DNA from: a virus
IMG/VR virus record: IMGVR_UViG_3300046559_001153
Coordinates: 62,001 to 126,000 of that record
Strand: one strand, 5' to 3'
Length of the DNA stretch: 64,000 nt
In this document: positions 14,976-29,093 of the stretch, piece after piece
How the letters are laid out: each line of letters opens with the position of its first letter
Position numbering within the stretch: position 1 is the first letter of the stretch
Notes under the pieces: generated by a model
What the model saw: the letters and a program-made list of their open reading frames with translations, nothing else
What the model was told of the DNA's origin: nothing
The model's database searches: none
Translations under genes and position numbers: made by a program

Positions 14976-15542
14976 ATGATTTTTTCTATCGATCCCTCGC
15001 TGACTGGCACAGCCGTCTGTTTGTGGGATCCGTTAAAACACGAACCAGACCTCGTTCGACGTTTCGAGTCAGACGCGACACATACCCTGGTCGATCGCAT
15101 TCGCCGTTATCGCCGTTTAGTCCGATCCGTGTTGTCGTGCTTTGATTTTGCCAAAGTGACCCTCATCTTGATCGAGGGTTACAGCATGGGCTCTAAGGGT
15201 GCCGCGGTGACTGGTTTGGCTGAGTACGGCGGCATTCTTCGAAATCAGCTGGTGCGCAAAGATGGGCCCCCTGTCATTGAAGTGTCGCCCCACTCGTTGA
15301 AGAAGTTCGCGACCGGAAAAGGGAACTGCAACAAGGGCTTTGTTCAGGCCCATGTGGCCCGTCGCTGGCAAATCATTTACGAGACTGACGACGAGATCGA
15401 CGCCTACGTGCTGGCGCGGATGGGCCTGTGCTATCTCGATGACGCGGCGTTTGAGACCACTGGCCAGCGCGAGGTGATTGATAAACTCAAGAACCCGGTC
15501 GGCAAATCAAAAAAGAAACGAAAGGCAAAAAATGACGGATGA
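14976..15542 (+). CDS. RuvC-like Holliday junction resolvase
   Basis: A 188-residue RNase H-fold nuclease. D6 lies in FSIDPSLTGTA, E67 in ILIEGYSMG, and the C-terminal acid pair D139/D142 in TDDEIDAYVLARMG, as in RuvC. It would resolve branched DNA before packaging or during recombination with the RecA-like protein. The tail is Lys-rich. It overlaps the next gene by 11 bases. Confidence 0.85.
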   Translation: MIFSIDPSLTGTAVCLWDPLKHEPDLVRRFESDATHTLVDRIRRYRRLVRSVLSCFDFAKVTLILIEGYSMGSKGAAVTGLAEYGGILRNQLVRKDGPPVIEVSPHSLKKFATGKGNCNKGFVQAHVARRWQIIYETDDEIDAYVLARMGLCYLDDAAFETTGQREVIDKLKNPVGKSKKKRKAKNDG

Positions 15543-18935: not shown

Positions 18936-19408
18936 TCAATCCGACTCCCGAGACAGTTGTTCCCAGCCGTTTGAATTACGTCAAGGTGTTCGTCCGGTTC
19001 ACACATTTTAAGATGAGTCCGTACGCATTCAGCGATCACGCCGAGCAGTCCTGGCAACTGGTCAGTGACGATCCGGATATGGCTGAGACGATCAGTGCCT
19101 GGGTGGACGAGACCAAATCGCTTATCATCTCTGCTGAGACTAGGACTGATATTTCGCACGGTAACATGGCAAAGGTCGTGTCTCAGACCACCACAGTCAT
19201 TTACACGAAAGCGGTGGACTATCGTGGACGAGAACCAAGAAAAACCGGAACAGACGAGTCCGCCAGACTTATCCACGGGCCCCGACCCGGTCCAACTGAC
19301 TCCAGCCCCGGATCCGTCAACCCAGGAGACGTTGTCCCCGCCGGCCCCGAAGTCGACCTGGAACGAGTTCCTATCTCACTGCAGTCCGGCAGCGAAGTCG
19401 GCGCTTAA
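18932..19408 (+). CDS. Unknown protein with read-through tail
   Basis: A 158-residue frame starting at ATGA. Residues 1-97 look like a compact protein. The last 60 residues (Pro/Gly/Ser-rich) come from DNA that also encodes the next gene in another frame. The natural C-terminus was probably near base 19223 and a stop seems to have been lost. Confidence 0.55.
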   Translation: MINPTPETVVPSRLNYVKVFVRFTHFKMSPYAFSDHAEQSWQLVSDDPDMAETISAWVDETKSLIISAETRTDISHGNMAKVVSQTTTVIYTKAVDYRGREPRKTGTDESARLIHGPRPGPTDSSPGSVNPGDVVPAGPEVDLERVPISLQSGSEVGA

Positions 19409-19973
19409 AGGCGAGCGGATCAGGACAAAGACTCCGGTCCCTGTCACCTATCGTCGCTTGTTGAAGCAATTGAGCGAAGACACCGTGGAATCGCTCAGTG
19501 AGCTGGCAGCCCCTCCGCCGTCCGACTATTGGGCTAATGCCTGTTGGAATTTGGTTGTCTGTCGTGATGGAGATTATGCGACTATTCACGAGTTCGGCAC
19601 CGAAGACGAGGTGGCGGCCGAGATTCGCAAGTACGACGGAACCGACACCATCGTGTTTGTCGTGCATGGCCGACAGGCCAAGATCTCGAGGAAGCCTCAG
19701 CGATTTCTGATTCTGCCTGACTGCGAGCAGGTCTTGCCCATCTTCGACGTGAGCGCTTTGGGACTGCCCGCCAGGTACACACCGCAGGGCCTGGACCTGG
19801 CTGTGCAGGAGAATGGTTTCTTGGGCAGGGCCGAGTACACGTTGCCGATTCCTAAGGGTCAGTTCAAATTGGAATCAAAGCATCCGACAGTGGTTCCCGA
19901 CACGCCGCCGCGTCACGAGGATCTGGCGACTGATGACGAGGAAGAAGATGAGGATTTTGATGAGTACGCGTGA
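19224..19973 (+). CDS. Unknown protein, acidic ends
   Basis: A 249-residue protein read from GTG 19224, overlapping the previous frame by 185 nt. The N-terminus is Pro/Glu/Thr-rich (VDENQEKPEQTSPPD), the middle is globular (YWANACWNLVVCRDGDYATI) and the end is DDEEEDEDFDEYA. GTG is the only sensible start before the globular part. It is the last gene before a terminator, so the replication block ends here. Confidence 0.6.
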   Translation: MDENQEKPEQTSPPDLSTGPDPVQLTPAPDPSTQETLSPPAPKSTWNEFLSHCSPAAKSALKGERIRTKTPVPVTYRRLLKQLSEDTVESLSELAAPPPSDYWANACWNLVVCRDGDYATIHEFGTEDEVAAEIRKYDGTDTIVFVVHGRQAKISRKPQRFLILPDCEQVLPIFDVSALGLPARYTPQGLDLAVQENGFLGRAEYTLPIPKGQFKLESKHPTVVPDTPPRHEDLATDDEEEDEDFDEYA

Positions 19974-20013
19974 GCTTAATTTTTGACTGAAATCAGGCAT
20001 ATAACTTGAAGCC

Positions 20014-20081
20014 GTTCGGTTTTAGACCTGGCCAGCGATCGTGTTGGCTTCGGCTTTAGACCTCGCCCGCAATCCTGTCGG
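20014..20081 (+). repeat. Tandem 34-nt direct repeat
   Basis: Two 34-nt units (20014-20047 and 20048-20081) share TTCGG, TTTAGACCT, GCC, GC and ATC at the same positions, with substitutions between them. The second unit forms the 5' arm and loop of the terminator that follows. This looks like duplication of a terminator or leader module. Confidence 0.6.
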
Positions 20082-20095
20082 CGAGGTATTTTTTA
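20061..20095 (+). terminator. Intrinsic terminator ending the replication block
   Basis: CCTCGCC (20061-20067) pairs with GGCGAGG (20080-20086), followed by TATTTTTTA. It lies 88 bases after the last replication-block gene and 14 bases before the next start. Confidence 0.85.
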
Positions 20096-20108
20096 TTCAA
20101 GGAGCGAG

Positions 20109-20312
20109 TTGCCCAAGTTAAGGATCTTTACGGGCGGAAGGATGGAAGGAAGACTCATTCTTGGCACGAAGACGAAAAACGTGCCCGACGGCTACATCAA
20201 AGTCTGGATTGCCGACGCGGTAAATGCTGACGGTTCGTACGTCAACAAACGCGTTGTGGTAGTCTCGTCTCACGAGTACAGAGGACTCGTGGCGCCGTTC
20301 CTCGCGAGGTAG
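20109..20312 (+). CDS. Small unknown protein, cassette gene 1
   Basis: A 67-residue basic protein with a TTG start behind AAGGAGCGAG. It contains beta-type segments (EGRLILGTKTK, GYIKVWIADAV, KRVVVVSSHEYRG). No family recognised. It is the first gene of a unit bounded by terminators at 20061 and 22374. Confidence 0.55.
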   Translation: MPKLRIFTGGRMEGRLILGTKTKNVPDGYIKVWIADAVNADGSYVNKRVVVVSSHEYRGLVAPFLAR

Positions 20313-20319
20313 TTTATGT

Positions 20320-20460
20320 ACCAGCGAGTAGATTGCCTAGCTTCGAAACAGTACCCCGTGTCGTGGATTATGCACAAGCGGGGATGAACTGTCGTAGCTG
20401 TCCGCAAGCAGCTTAACTTGCGGTAACGCCAATATGGCGTGCCTCGTCGGGCTCAACGAA
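20320..20460 (+). ncRNA. Candidate structured RNA or 5' leader
   Basis: Four consecutive foldable elements. First, ACAGT-A-CCCCG pairs with CGGGG-ATGA-ACTGT around a 20-nt loop, with outer AGCT/AGCT pairing. Second, CCGCAAG/CTTGCGG is a perfect 7-bp stem. Third, ACGCCA/TGGCGT is a perfect 6-bp stem with a 3-nt loop. Fourth, GCCT-CGT/ACG-AA-AGGC. No ORF fits this stretch. It ends 13 bases before the 616-residue gene, so it could be a cis-regulatory leader or an independent RNA. I cannot match it to a named RNA class. Confidence 0.55.
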
Positions 20461-20473
20461 AGGCGATGTCACC

Positions 20474-22324
20474 ATGAAGGTCCGCGAAAAAGGAGTGAGG
20501 CGCGGGGGACGAAAAGGGAATCTGTTCGGCCAGACCGTCGAAGATATCGATAGTCTGGATCGGCTTAATGAAGAGTGGCGAACGGAGGACCGTTGTTTCA
20601 ATGCAGTGGGAGAGATGATCGCGTCTAACGACCCGGAGCGACACCACTGGAGCGGTGTCGGGATGGCCGTCGTTTTTGATCCGGCATTTCCGTTTATTCG
20701 TGCGATGGTTAAGACCGAGTCAGGCTATCAACGGCAGCCGATGGTGCACTCGGTGCTGGCTATTCCGGCCGGACGCGATGTGGCGTATTTCGGGCACAAT
20801 AAACGAGCTACTGTTCTGGCCAGGCGTCATTATTTGACTGTTTTCGACGGTCGTATTTGTTTGCAGAGCATCCTCGGACTAACACCAGAGGGGACGTACA
20901 ACACGTCCGACGAGGCGTTCTGGGATTTATCGAAGCCACCGACATCGATCCCCAGAAACGCAGTCATGGTGAAGGAGCGAGCTGCCTATGTTTCAGCGCC
21001 GTTCAGCGGGCATTACGCCGTTGTCCTTCGCGAGGATTTAGGCAAGTTCTTTGCGACGATCAAGGATCCCCACACCGGCCTGACCTGTGTGGTGGCTGAA
21101 ATTCCCTATGATCTACTCGACAAAGCTTTGACGGAGTCGGAACCTCACAATGATGGGGCTCCAGTCGCTGTTGGCGACAAGCTGATTGAGTTCGAAGGCG
21201 TGCAGACGTTTATGCAACTGCGCGATTCCACGTCACGTGTAACCCTGGAGAGCTATCTGTCGCGTCGTCCGATGATGCCACGCGACGTGTTAAATCCTGA
21301 AAAGCACAGTTTCGATCTTCGTATTTACACGACGTTGATGAATCGGCTGACCAGTGGATTGGTTGATCGTCTCAATCTTTTCAACAGTTTGCCGCGACGC
21401 TCAGAGGGTAGGCCGCAAGGGCGTCGTTTTGTGATGTGGCAAGACGAATACTTGTCGAGCCCAAACGCCCATCCCGGAGACTGGCTCCCCGAGGCGTACG
21501 TGTTTCACGAACGAGGGGCAGATCAAAGTGACGATGATTACTTTGTTTCTATCCTCAAAAAAATGAACCTCAGTTTCAAGGAAGAGCTCGAGCGACAGGT
21601 TCATGACTATTTCGGGGTTCCCGCACCGGTTGATGGCGAGATCCTCTCTGTGACACTGCGTCAGCCCGACGTGTTTGGCAAACAGGGCTATGACGTGGTG
21701 TTCGTGGGATGCGATGGTCACCGTCGCATTTATACGCTGCCGTGGACAGCCTCATTCCCGGTTCGTGGACTGGAGAGAGGTCCCAAGCTCGGTCCGATCA
21801 AGGCGAGAGAATTGATGGCTTACGCTTTGACGTTCGGTAGCACACGCATTCAGACGATGCGAAATGAGGAGCACCTGCTGCCGCTGTGCGACGGAAATAA
21901 AGACCTGGCTACCACCTTGTTATACCGGCTCGGTTTGTTGCTCGTGCAATGTCGATGCGAGCCGGCGTTCTGCGAGGAGATCTCTGGCGGAAAACCGGGT
22001 TTGATGCTTTCGGCGCGGTACCTTGAGTCGAAGGCGGGGCATCTGCCGAATGAACAATTCATTTGGTGGGACATGCGGCCGTTGCTGCCTTACTACCGAG
22101 GTGACCTGGGATGTGCCATCCTTCCCTGGATTAAACTGGGGTCAGTCGGCCATGTTTGGCGGACCATGGCCTTTACCTGCAACATGTGTAGATTGAACTT
22201 TATTCCCCATATTGGGAATAAAGTTGACGAGGATTTGATCGGTTTTCCGTTCGACCTGATTAAAGCCGGCCATTGCCGTCCACGATCAGGTGCACCAGTT
22301 TACGCAGTTGCGAAAGCAAGCTGA
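20474..22324 (+). CDS. Large orphan protein of a terminator-bounded cassette
   Basis: A 616-residue cytosolic protein I do not recognise. The N-terminus is Arg/Lys/Gly-rich (KVREKGVRRGGRKGN). The body has no reverse-transcriptase YxDD, no P-loop and no endonuclease motif that I can see. Cysteines near the C-terminus (FTCNMCRLNF) and at VQCRCEPAFC might bind metal. No clear Shine-Dalgarno precedes the ATG; the strongly folded region upstream may control initiation. Isolation between terminators suggests separate expression, as in a moron. Confidence 0.6.
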   Translation: MKVREKGVRRGGRKGNLFGQTVEDIDSLDRLNEEWRTEDRCFNAVGEMIASNDPERHHWSGVGMAVVFDPAFPFIRAMVKTESGYQRQPMVHSVLAIPAGRDVAYFGHNKRATVLARRHYLTVFDGRICLQSILGLTPEGTYNTSDEAFWDLSKPPTSIPRNAVMVKERAAYVSAPFSGHYAVVLREDLGKFFATIKDPHTGLTCVVAEIPYDLLDKALTESEPHNDGAPVAVGDKLIEFEGVQTFMQLRDSTSRVTLESYLSRRPMMPRDVLNPEKHSFDLRIYTTLMNRLTSGLVDRLNLFNSLPRRSEGRPQGRRFVMWQDEYLSSPNAHPGDWLPEAYVFHERGADQSDDDYFVSILKKMNLSFKEELERQVHDYFGVPAPVDGEILSVTLRQPDVFGKQGYDVVFVGCDGHRRIYTLPWTASFPVRGLERGPKLGPIKARELMAYALTFGSTRIQTMRNEEHLLPLCDGNKDLATTLLYRLGLLLVQCRCEPAFCEEISGGKPGLMLSARYLESKAGHLPNEQFIWWDMRPLLPYYRGDLGCAILPWIKLGSVGHVWRTMAFTCNMCRLNFIPHIGNKVDEDLIGFPFDLIKAGHCRPRSGAPVYAVAKAS

Positions 22325-22326
22325 CG

Positions 22327-22342
22327 ACGCCCTTATGGGCGT
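22327..22342 (+). other. Perfect hairpin after the orphan gene
   Basis: ACGCCC-TTAT-GGGCGT, a 6-bp stem with a tetraloop, two bases after the stop. Its core ACGCC..TAT.GG.CGT resembles the third hairpin of the upstream leader (ACGCCAATATGGCGT). TTACGC at the gene's end could alternatively pair with GCGTAA here. Confidence 0.5.
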
Positions 22343-22373
22343 AAGGCGAGACCCAAATTGAATGATCGATCAC

Positions 22374-22412
22374 GGTGGCGGCCAGGTGATCTGGCCGCCG
22401 CCGTTTCTTACG
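22374..22412 (+). terminator. Intrinsic terminator closing the cassette
   Basis: GGTGGCGGCCAG (22374-22385) pairs with CTGGCCGCCGCC (22391-22402), a 12-bp stem with one G-T pair and a 5-nt loop, followed by GTTTCTTACGTTTT. The remaining 80 bases to the next gene hold no further feature I can support beyond its Shine-Dalgarno AAAGGAGA. Confidence 0.85.
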
Positions 22413-22492
22413 TTTTAGCCATTGGACAGGTACTGCCGTCTTCCATTCTTCTCTGGATTGCCGTATGCTGAGACCAAAGGAGACTACGAATT

Positions 22493-23662
22493 ATGCTCGA
22501 TGACAGTGCGGCATTACAGATGCTCGGTGGCGGCCCGGTCATGCAAACCCGCAAGGGCCTGCACGGCGTGAGTGTTCTGTCACCCGACCCGGATAAGCAC
22601 GTTCGCGTGGGTGGCGCCAGTGACATGGGCTTCATGGTCCCGATGGCCGATCTGATGACGGGCAGTCCGCCCGGTTTTGATCAGAGCAAGGCCGGCATGG
22701 TGGTGATTAACCCCGACGAATCAGGCAAAGGGACGTTGATCGATTTCAGCAAGTTGACCCCGGATGACGTGAATAGGGCTATGCGGATGGGATCCGATCC
22801 ATCAGATGCGATGGAGAAATTGGCCAAGCTGCATCCCCCACGATCCGCAGCGGTTGTCCAGCCCAGGCAGGTCCCCGTCGAACGTGTTATTTTGAATCAG
22901 TTGCCCCGGGTAGTCCAACATCCCCAAGCCATGCTTCCGCCGGCCAATCCGCCCTCGATCAATCCACCGCGGGTGATCTTGCCGGGTTTTGCCACTGTCG
23001 GGCAACCCCAACATATTCCCCAGGAACAGCCCATGCAAGCTCAGCCTCCGATGATGATGATGGCTCCCCCTGCGTCTCAGACTTGGACGTCGCCGGCTCC
23101 GTCTGTGGCCCAACCCGCGTTGCCCAATCCCAATGCCCCGATGTACCCGGCACAGCAGCCCGACGCCTTGTCGGTGATCATGCAGACTTTGATGGGAATG
23201 CAGCAACAAATCGACTCGCTGCGTCCTCAGCAGGTTCAGCCGTTTGTGCAGGAAGCTCGTCAGCCTGATTACACTCCCCTGGAGACTGAGGCCATTGCCG
23301 ACCTGAGTGCGCTGGAAATCCCCTGGTTGACACCCGTTGTCATGCCGCCAACCGTGGACGTCATGTTCAACCTGGGTGATGCGGGAGGCGTTCGTACCAA
23401 GTACCATCACGTCGAAATCACCGACGCATTGATCCTGTTGATCTACGATTCGCGGTTCGAAATGGCCACGCAGTATACGCCGCCGTTCACCAGAACCAGG
23501 GAAGCGGGACCCCTGATTTTGCAGATTGGCAAGTCAAAATCCCAACATCAGGCCCATCATTATCCCGGCCTCGATTTCGCTTTGGGTGTTTACCACGTAA
23601 CATTGTTGATGAAGGTGGTTCTCGAGCCCGAAGACCCGGTCGATCCGGCCAACGTCATTTAG
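22493..23662 (+). CDS. Pro/Gln/Met-rich protein upstream of portal
   Basis: A 389-residue protein. Residues 1-120 are globular; residues about 125-265 are Pro/Gln/Met low complexity (QPMQAQPPMMMMAPP). A C-terminal domain follows, rich in beta strands and aromatics. It sits just before a short linker gene and the portal gene, so a head-morphogenesis or virion role is possible from position only. Confidence 0.6.
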   Translation: MLDDSAALQMLGGGPVMQTRKGLHGVSVLSPDPDKHVRVGGASDMGFMVPMADLMTGSPPGFDQSKAGMVVINPDESGKGTLIDFSKLTPDDVNRAMRMGSDPSDAMEKLAKLHPPRSAAVVQPRQVPVERVILNQLPRVVQHPQAMLPPANPPSINPPRVILPGFATVGQPQHIPQEQPMQAQPPMMMMAPPASQTWTSPAPSVAQPALPNPNAPMYPAQQPDALSVIMQTLMGMQQQIDSLRPQQVQPFVQEARQPDYTPLETEAIADLSALEIPWLTPVVMPPTVDVMFNLGDAGGVRTKYHHVEITDALILLIYDSRFEMATQYTPPFTRTREAGPLILQIGKSKSQHQAHHYPGLDFALGVYHVTLLMKVVLEPEDPVDPANVI

Positions 23663-23849: not shown

Positions 23850-26735
23850 ATGATTGGTTCTCCGGTGCCCAGCGGTATGGGCGGTTACGGCGATCAGTTC
23901 CCTGATCCGTTTAACGACGTCGCGTCGATGAACATGCCATTGGGCATGCGATCGGCCTTGAGGACGTGCGAACGCATCTGGCTGGCATCCGGCTCGTACC
24001 GCATGGCCCAGCAGCGCATCTGCAGTTACTTCTTGACTGACATCCAGTTCAACGACTGCAGCGACGATGACCGATCTAAGTACACGGAGTTCGTCGAGGA
24101 CTTCGGTTTGCTGGAAGCCGAACAGCAGATGTACATCGATAGGGCGTGCTTCCATGGCGACGTGAAAGCCGTGACCAAGCACGGGGTTTTCAAACTTCGA
24201 GAGCTGGCTGGAAAGACTGTTGAAGTCCTGTCGCAAGGCGGCGAGTATCGACAAGCAACTTTCCAGTCGCACGGTCACCAGGCGTTATTGGAAGTGGCGT
24301 TTAGTGATGGTCGAACGATTTTGGCCACACCGGAACATGAGTGGACAGCTTTGAATTGTTCCGGCAAAAAGGTTGTCGTCCAGACAAAAGATCTGCACCA
24401 CGGGTATCGTATTCCTCGAGTTGTCGCCCCCCGACCAGAAAAAAATGAAGATTATTTTGAGGGGGTACGTCACGGTTTTGTTTTTGGTGATGGAACAGCC
24501 TACAACGATGAACGGCAGTCGGCCGCCATTTTTTATACGGCGAAAGACGACGAATTGATTCCCTATTTTGATGGCCACGGTGGGGAATTGAAACCGCGGC
24601 CATCTCGACCTGAACAGCGATATTTGCACGGTTTGCCCGGTCATTACAAGCAGCTGCCGTCTAACGATAAAAGCCCCAGCTACTGGTATGGTTTTGTTTG
24701 CGGATTTTTGGCCGCAGACGGCACTGTGGATACGTATGGTTGCGCCCTGTTGACGCAGATAGCCAAAGCGACTTTGGACGTAATTGTCGACCAGCTGCCC
24801 CGCATCGGGATGTGTGCTGGGCCAATTCGTGCTCAACGTCGAATTACCGACTTGAGAAAATACAGCGGCGAAAATGCCGTTTATGACAGCACAATTCACT
24901 TTGTCACGCTGTTGAAACGATTCATGCTGCCCCAGGATTTTCTGGTGACTAAGCACCGGATAAATTTCGAGGCGAATTTCAATTCGAAGTCGAATTATGG
25001 CAAGTACGTGCATATTAAGGCCATTCGTGAAACGGGTATCGTTGACGAGGTCTTTTGTTGTGCCGAAATGGAGACGCACACATTTGTCGTCGATCAGGCC
25101 ATTCTTACGAAGAATTGCTACGGAAATGCATTCGCTACGATCATGGTCCCGTTCAAGCGGATGCTGATGTGCCCGACAGCCAGTCGTGGATGTGGCAACC
25201 AGTACCCGTTGAAGGTCGTTTACAACGTCCCCAAATTCGCATTCAAATGGTCGCCATCGACCTGCGAATTTATCGCGACCTGCCCGCACTGCCAGTACCA
25301 CGGGCCATTCAAGGTCATCGATAATCCTGAGGACATGGAGAAACGCATCCGTGTAAAGACCTGGAATCCGCACGAGATCGAAATCCTGCACGACATGATG
25401 ACGGGCGATTGCGCCTACACATGGCGTATCCCCGAAGACTACAAGACTCAGATCCGTCGAGGAAACCTGTTCCATTTGGAACGTGTCTCCATGCCGGTTC
25501 TGCAGGCCATCAAAAAGAACCTGGTCTTTCGATTTCACGAGGATGTGCTCTTCCATATGAGGGAAGAGACGCCCAGCGGTATCCGTAACAGGGGCTGGGG
25601 AATTCCGCGGGCCCTGACGAACTTCCGTCAGGTGTACTACGTACAGGTGCTCAAACGGTACAACGAGGCCCTGGCCCTGGATTACATCATCCCCTTCCGG
25701 GTGATCACGCCGGTTGCCCGCCCGGGAGCGCTAGGCCCTGGCGCCCGAGCGTTGGATCCAATGGCCACAATGGACATGGGCGATTTCAGCTCCCAGGTCC
25801 GCAACATGATCCGCCGTCGACGACTCGACCCGGCCATGTGGTGCACGTTGCCATTCCCGATCCAGTATCAGGCCTTAGGCGGCGACGCGAGTCAGCTGGC
25901 GCCGAGCCAGTTGCTCGACCAAGGGCTCCAGCAGCTCCTGAATGACTCAGGGACGCCTCTCGAGCTGTACAACGGCTCTTTGACCGTCCAGACGGCCCCG
26001 GTGGCCCTGCGGCTGTTTGAGGCGACTAATACGCCCCTTGTACGGGCCGGCAATCAGTTCCTCAACTGGGCCATCAAGAAGGCCGCCCAGATCTTGCAGT
26101 GGGAACCTGTGAAGACCGCGAACAAGCGGGTCACCTACGCCGACGACGCATTGCGACAACAGTTGATCCTGCAGCTCATGACCGGGCAACAGGTCTCTCA
26201 GACGACCGGGCTCAGCGGTCTGGGTCTTGTCTTTACCGACGAGCAGAAGCGTCTGGCCGAAGAGGCCCGCGAGCAGGCCGATATCCGTACAAAGGTGCAA
26301 GACGAGATGGACGAAGCCGGTTTGTCCAAGGCCATGGTGCAGGGACCACAGGCTGGCGGGCAGCCTGGGGCGGCCGGTGGAGCAGCTCCTCCGGGTGGTG
26401 CGGCCCCTCCGGGCGGTGCTGGCGGTGCCAGTGCGTCTGGGCCTTCCCCGATCCCCGGGCAGTCAGACGCCATGCAGCCGGCAACAGCCTACTTGCAATC
26501 CAGGCCACCCGGCGGTCAGATCGACCTGCAAAGCTTCCAGCAGTCGGCCGATCAACTTGTTTCGGCCCTGGCGTCGCTACCTCACGAACAGCGGCAAAAG
26601 CAATTGCGAGAGCTGCGTGAGGGCGATCCGTCGATGCACCAGCTCGTCAGTGGTGGATTACAAAAAGCCAGACGTCAACAGAGCAGTCAGGGACAACAGG
26701 ATTCATCTCAGCAACCACCTCCCCAGGGGCAATGA
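23850..26735 (+). CDS. Portal-like protein interrupted by an intein
   Basis: A precursor of 961 residues. Removing the intein (residues 100-422) leaves a 638-residue protein that reads as a phage portal/head-tail connector type: N-terminal helices, a YGNAFATI motif right at the splice junction, a long central alpha region (RNMIRRRRLDPAMW), and a Gly/Ala/Pro/Gln-rich tail. After the junction CPTASRGCG and CPHC suggest a zinc ribbon, unusual for portals. No large terminase or capsid gene is next to it in this window. The portal assignment rests on the overall pattern. Confidence 0.6.
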   Translation: MIGSPVPSGMGGYGDQFPDPFNDVASMNMPLGMRSALRTCERIWLASGSYRMAQQRICSYFLTDIQFNDCSDDDRSKYTEFVEDFGLLEAEQQMYIDRACFHGDVKAVTKHGVFKLRELAGKTVEVLSQGGEYRQATFQSHGHQALLEVAFSDGRTILATPEHEWTALNCSGKKVVVQTKDLHHGYRIPRVVAPRPEKNEDYFEGVRHGFVFGDGTAYNDERQSAAIFYTAKDDELIPYFDGHGGELKPRPSRPEQRYLHGLPGHYKQLPSNDKSPSYWYGFVCGFLAADGTVDTYGCALLTQIAKATLDVIVDQLPRIGMCAGPIRAQRRITDLRKYSGENAVYDSTIHFVTLLKRFMLPQDFLVTKHRINFEANFNSKSNYGKYVHIKAIRETGIVDEVFCCAEMETHTFVVDQAILTKNCYGNAFATIMVPFKRMLMCPTASRGCGNQYPLKVVYNVPKFAFKWSPSTCEFIATCPHCQYHGPFKVIDNPEDMEKRIRVKTWNPHEIEILHDMMTGDCAYTWRIPEDYKTQIRRGNLFHLERVSMPVLQAIKKNLVFRFHEDVLFHMREETPSGIRNRGWGIPRALTNFRQVYYVQVLKRYNEALALDYIIPFRVITPVARPGALGPGARALDPMATMDMGDFSSQVRNMIRRRRLDPAMWCTLPFPIQYQALGGDASQLAPSQLLDQGLQQLLNDSGTPLELYNGSLTVQTAPVALRLFEATNTPLVRAGNQFLNWAIKKAAQILQWEPVKTANKRVTYADDALRQQLILQLMTGQQVSQTTGLSGLGLVFTDEQKRLAEEAREQADIRTKVQDEMDEAGLSKAMVQGPQAGGQPGAAGGAAPPGGAAPPGGAGGASASGPSPIPGQSDAMQPATAYLQSRPPGGQIDLQSFQQSADQLVSALASLPHEQRQKQLRELREGDPSMHQLVSGGLQKARRQQSSQGQQDSSQQPPPQGQ
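24147..25115 (+). mobile_element. Intein with LAGLIDADG endonuclease domain
   Basis: A 323-residue intein. Block A is CFHGDVKAVTKHGVFKLREL (starting at Cys100), block B GRTILATPEHEW with its His. Two LAGLIDADG-type helices are visible: GFVFGDGTA and GFVCGFLAADGTVD. Block F is EVFCCAEMETHTFVVDQ, and block G ends ILTKN, followed by extein Cys423. The residue before the terminal Asn is Lys, not the usual His. Both splice nucleophiles are Cys. Codon use is visibly more AT-rich than the exteins, consistent with later arrival. The second LAGLIDADG keeps its acidic residue; the first reads FGDG. Confidence 0.9.
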
Positions 26736-28670: not shown

Positions 28671-29093
28671 ATGTCTGTTTATGACCAGATGATTGAAGAA
28701 GTGATCAAAATGCAACCGCTTCAAATGCAGAGCACATGGGCAGAATCACACAAGCGTCTGCATGGCGAGCTTTTCGCGTATTGCTCGCCTGGGCGAGGAT
28801 TTATGTCGTGTAGACCAGATAATAAAGTGTGCGGTTGTCTCACCCAGATCAGAGCTAGCCATTGGTTTGAAGACCCACCACGTAAGTTCGCGTGGACGGA
28901 CGAACTGACGAAGCTGATTGCCGAAGATGATCGTCTGCCGTCTGATATGGGTGACTTGGTAAGGAAATGGCCTGGCATGTCGGCCGATGAACGCCGAGCC
29001 ACGCTCATTCCTTTGGCCGAATGGCAAGAACGTCTGGATAAAGAACTCAATCGCACTACTCCGGTCTTCGGCCAGTTCAATAATCCGCATTAA
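28671..29093 (+). CDS. Paralogue family A member 1, unknown
   Basis: A 140-residue protein, first of four related proteins (others at 29106, 44371, 48070). Shared features are YDQMIEEVIKM at the start, a FAYCSPG patch, CGCLTQIR in the middle, WTDELTKLI, and a C-terminal ERRATLIPLAEWQERLDKELNR. The CGCLT motif with an upstream Cys could bind metal. It has an AAAGG Shine-Dalgarno 5 bases before the ATG. Function unknown. Confidence 0.65.
   Translation: MSVYDQMIEEVIKMQPLQMQSTWAESHKRLHGELFAYCSPGRGFMSCRPDNKVCGCLTQIRASHWFEDPPRKFAWTDELTKLIAEDDRLPSDMGDLVRKWPGMSADERRATLIPLAEWQERLDKELNRTTPVFGQFNNPH

Follow-up and report, generated by a model that had tools for sequence, protein, structure and literature searches.

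The region between genes A and B of this phage probably forms an insulated transcription unit within the module of structural genes, holding a single fast-evolving gene, which we call F, and here also a small ORF preceding it. The window, which is the whole stretch of 64,000 nucleotides analysed, covered bases 62001–126000 of a virus record of 224,270 bases. The source is a large tailed phage encoding its own multisubunit RNA polymerase, and the record also contained genes for a phage RuvC-like resolvase, DNA polymerase, primase, DnaB-like helicase, and tail proteins. What had appeared from the letters of the region to be an orphan RNA/protein cassette proved to contain a member of an undescribed protein family, which occupies a fixed position in a little-known giant-phage lineage. 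The features of the region are listed below in window coordinates.

19224–19973, + strand: gene A, the left syntenic neighbour, with an acidic C-terminus (relatives' profile matches, E 1e-21 to 1e-76)
19977–20003, + strand: promoter-like bipartite element TAAT-N-AGGCATATA (from pattern scans; putative function)
20015–20082, + strand: tandem duplication of a 34-nt hairpin element (copies 82% identical)
20060–20094, + strand: terminator 1, an 8-bp stem (20060–20087) with a 12-nt loop, followed by A and then T6 (convincing)
20109–20312, + strand: 67-aa ORF with an AAGGAG Shine–Dalgarno sequence and a TTG start (ORF call)
20313–20473, + strand: untranslated, non-conserved leader in which hairpins are predicted (z −1.55 and −1.98; no Rfam match)
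20458–20463, + strand: GAAAGG, Shine–Dalgarno-like, 10 nt ahead of the ATG at 20474 (from the sequence)
20474–22324, + strand: family F gene, 616 aa (hhalign, hmmsearch --max, and synteny)
22196–22225, + strand: near-perfect 30-nt palindrome in the F coding sequence, near its 3′ end (from the sequence)
22372–22404, + strand: hairpin 2, terminator-like, with 14-nt arms, at the end of the unit (hairpin and T-rich tail in the F–B gap of relatives)
22413–22428, + strand: TTTTAGCCATTGGACA, a variant of the element T(7-9)AGCTAT[CT][AG]G that the lineage carries ahead of gene B (pattern scans)
22493–23662, + strand: gene B, the right syntenic neighbour, 389 aa (relatives' profile matches, E 1e-9 to 1e-147)

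The GTG at 19224 is the likely start of gene A, the longest ORF of which begins at 19065. In the proposed organization, hairpin 1 would stop transcription arriving from gene A; alternatively, it may attenuate transcription from the promoter-like element just upstream. F would be made from its own transcript ending at hairpin 2, and transcription of gene B and the portal gene would restart at the T-rich AGCTATC element. Separate transcripts would allow F to differ from its neighbours in the timing or level of its production.

Family F and its place in related phages

No close relative of this phage was found in the annotated phage collection. Its DNA polymerase showed 22–24% identity to the best annotated-phage matches, and the intein-free portal protein matched only Salmonella phage Arash and three Vibrio phages among annotated phages, at 25–27% identity. 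The portal gene (window 23850–26735) is split by an intein-like insertion at residues 100–422, and the extein after splicing aligned with the intein-less portals of relatives. IMG/VR scans with the intein-containing portal and with the DNA polymerase gave no relatives; these were obtained by an IMG/VR search with the intein-free portal aligned to Arash and the Vibrio phages. The first such alignment recovered 14 IMG/VR loci, three of them at 48% identity, and the second 59 loci, many at 45–58% identity. As these loci were found, the flanking genes A and B became recognizable.

Ten relatives carried one ORF of 390–692 aa between A and B, with the order A–F–B upstream of the portal gene, and the window protein fits this placement. 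In the relatives, the gene to the left of F, or of B, was a homologue of gene A. Both the 67-residue and the 616-residue ORF of the sequence-only reading are real, but the larger protein is not the orphan it was taken for: positional homologues exist, visible only to profile searches. Direct searches with the 616-aa protein gave no match in Pfam, PHROGs, annotated phages, IMG/VR, or GTDB contigs, and its own genome held no paralogue or other copy of the gene.

A family F profile was built from eight homologues with the window protein left out. In hhalign against the 186 proteins of at least 180 aa from its own genome, the window protein ranked first (prob 90.2, E 1.5e-6) with an alignment of 306 columns, and the runner-up reached prob 7.2. 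With hmmsearch --max (filters off) against 1188 ORFs of the genome it was again first (E 9e-4); an earlier profile of ten members, run with the default hmmsearch filters, missed it. In the reverse search of 4721 ORFs from relatives, the L057/L058 positional homologue ranked first (E 0.005). In L060, F is preceded by a 61-aa ORF to which the 67-aa ORF showed weak similarity (blastp E 0.025); this homology was set aside when a profile did not confirm it.

The window protein showed 14–20% identity to aligned F members. Identities to relatives were 18–29% for gene A, 20–25% for gene B, and 38–60% for the portal protein. As A and B are nearly as diverged as F, the low identity of F is typical of its neighbourhood and gives no sign of foreign origin; GC content was also similar across F, A, and B. 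Judged by sequence and gene order, we regard F as a fast-evolving lineage gene with a fixed place near the portal gene in many related giant phages.

The order A–F–B was seen at 11 loci, and A and B abutted without F at 25 loci, which include some near-duplicate records. In the portal tree, which has a distant outgroup and several long branches, the F-less loci formed one group nested among F carriers (support 100/99), and one change accounts for this distribution. F is therefore a lineage gene, not a cassette gained and lost repeatedly, and the single change is likely a loss in one clade rather than a gain. An apparent empty site can thus mean the loss of an older gene. The sequence-only reading had proposed a presence/absence check of the cassette in related phages; F was present in 10 relatives and absent from 25 loci. 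The one-change pattern comes close to a fixed core gene set, which that reading itself had named as speaking against its proposal. No F gene was found elsewhere in the F-less records; this search also missed the divergent copies in L054, L060, and L067, so it excludes close copies only. The 2.5-kb stretch was at one stage regarded as an insertion relative to L014–L016, which was dropped in favour of loss once the positional homologues were found.

This distribution also bears on the idea that F is a moron or accessory cassette, an independently regulated gene inserted between two structural genes that adjoin each other in relatives, perhaps with a function in defence or superinfection exclusion. 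As phage morons do, the region offers a single gene that has hairpin terminators of its own, and the genes on either side of it are neighbours in some relatives, here the 25 loci in which A and B abut. It differs from them in that ten diverged relatives keep F homologues at this position and that the absence of F is confined to one clade nested among carriers, so that a single loss accounts for the empty site. Divergence is moreover about the same for F, A, and B, and their GC is similar. A moron would have entered between two genes that were neighbours in the ancestor, whereas the tree, with its distant root, gave a single change that looks like loss; a moron would also carry its own transcription signals and terminator, and here the hairpins are present and the promoter is putative. 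We consider this explanation unlikely.

Hairpins, boundary elements, and the leader

Nearly all F carriers had one hairpin in the A–F gap and one in the F–B gap. The position and form of these flanking hairpins persisted among carriers while their sequences differed, and the first hairpins of several relatives lacked a T-tract. Since hairpins occur at both F borders in nearly all carriers, the insulated unit is conserved even though its sequence is not, and the isolation noted in the sequence-only reading extends in this form to the relatives. That reading had also described both borders as strong intrinsic terminators. Both hairpins exist and terminator 1 is convincing; hairpin 2, for all the length of its stem, has a mediocre T-tract, TTTCTTACGTTTT. 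The F–B gap holding hairpin 2 gave fold z values of −3.6 and −4.2. The duplicated 34-nt element was confirmed as tandem copies at 20015–20048 and 20049–20082, the second of which supplies most of terminator 1, and the repeat region (19974–20108) gave a fold z of −2.97. Hairpins of the form ACGCC-N3-8-GGCGT do lie on either side of the large gene (20426–20440 and 22327–22342), as had been remarked; this pair represents two of the three in the record, for a pattern picked post hoc.

The element before gene B, T(7-9)AGCTAT[CT][AG]G, had 20 plus-strand and no minus-strand matches in 1.54 Mb of loci, mostly at the gene B border and some of them from near-identical records. A looser form had five plus-strand and no minus-strand matches in the phage's own genome, and none in shuffles. 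The AGCTATC element was retained in many F-less A–B joints. It is a candidate promoter or transcription boundary of the lineage, and none of the papers searched contained it. In jumbo phages with multisubunit RNA polymerases, some operons are preceded by short, AT-rich promoter motifs that are conserved (PMC7598289), and this putative signal is comparable to them. The present phage resembles those phages in encoding beta and beta-prime parts, and differs in having beta together with the beta-prime catalytic segment in one ORF.

The own-genome AGCTATC elements, all on the plus strand, were located at L003:814, L006:18708, L008:9064, L009:8771, and window 22413; they usually stood directly after a GC-rich hairpin, and the one at L008:9064 followed a terminator hairpin. 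The phage RNA polymerase was encoded by two ORFs at G000 167367–180883 (L008:14-4093 and L008:10573-14883). One contains beta and then the beta-prime ADFDGD catalytic segment; the other contains a beta-prime C-terminal domain, and its last third also matched ATP-dependent DNA ligase.

Directly after gene A, F carriers showed the element CTAAA-N-G[CA]G[TG]CAYAA, whose strict form had eight plus-strand matches in relatives, including one duplicated record, and no minus-strand match. The element was absent from the A–B joints of F-less loci, and the window copy, at 19977, is degenerate. A promoter-like element upstream of terminator 1 would be in an odd order if it were the promoter of F. Bipartite elements of the TAAA-N-GGCATA type were also observed at L008:7109, L009:7568, and L003:7618, and the one at L008:7109 had a terminator hairpin directly downstream. 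The two boundary elements may mark separate transcription units; both are candidate transcription signals of a phage that has a multisubunit RNA polymerase of its own.

For the hairpins immediately preceding F, an untranslated leader is the simplest explanation, rather than a partner RNA. Four clean hairpins without an ORF had been described here, and a folded structure is indeed predicted, but its stability barely exceeded that of shuffled sequences: 20310–20476 gave z −1.55, with 14 of 200 shuffles equally or more stable, and a rerun on 20313–20473 gave z −1.98. Among the 41 other gaps of the genome, 12 fell below z −1.55, including the F–B gap. Rfam searches at gathering and relaxed thresholds returned nothing relevant for the leader, and its own genome held no second copy.

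A functional structured RNA at 20313–20473, controlling F or acting with it, would agree with 161 nt free of ORFs and a predicted multi-branch fold of −56 kcal/mol immediately upstream of the start codon. The z value of just −1.55, the missing Rfam match, and the leaders of relatives, which carry other hairpins, have no such region, and share no homologous sequence, make it improbable. RNA control had been argued from the lack of a visible ribosome-binding site at the large gene, yet the Shine–Dalgarno-like GAAAGG is present at 20458–20463. The same hexamer stands ahead of three other genes (at 28671, 29106, and 30588), where the spacer is 5 nt; the 10-nt spacer before the 616-aa gene is long. 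For a two-part RNA/protein system one would look for an RNA structured above chance or belonging to a known family, and neither was found. A defence, counter-defence, or mobile system of this kind is not supported for the region, in view of the syntenic family, the one-change distribution, and the weak RNA.

Possible role of F

From its position near the portal gene, F may be a virion-assembly or virion-associated protein, and polymerase work is the weaker option. Structure prediction with a fold search, as suggested in the sequence-only reading, was informative only through a homologue: the single-sequence model of the 616-aa protein was unusable (pLDDT 30.5) and was set aside, while the L057 homologue, modelled from 13 sequences (pLDDT 73, pTM 0.72), gave a local match. 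Its top matches in the PDB were RNA-polymerase chains, mostly beta-prime, at E ~1e-3 and TM-scores of 0.12–0.14. The top PDB sequence match of the family F profile was Thermotoga NusG (E 0.03). The fold search of the viral library gave no useful match, and F matched no Pfam family.

These results, in a phage that encodes beta and beta-prime, raise the question of whether F is a subunit of, or a factor for, the phage RNA polymerase. F shares with the barrel-type domains of beta-prime and NusG a local fold match of its homologue; it differs in that the TM-score is low, the sequence score is marginal, and the remaining protein is unmatched. We read these matches as a local barrel-type domain, which is no proof of a polymerase role. 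No sequence match to the beta or beta-prime families was obtained, the F profile aligned with the phage's own polymerase ORFs over 22–23 columns only (prob 0.5–2), and F was lost in one clade. A polymerase role is therefore doubtful. It is less probable still that F is a new kind of polymerase-associated phage protein with a beta-prime-like barrel domain, whose gene is gated by a promoter-then-terminator switch made of the element following gene A and then terminator 1; such a switch would be opened by antitermination and used again by this lineage at other genomic sites.

Elsewhere in the window, the RuvC-like resolvase was encoded at 14976–15542. The same place in L015 (5250–6697) held other ORFs, which by eye resembled a DnaQ-type exonuclease and endonuclease VII, and a resolvase replacement is possible.
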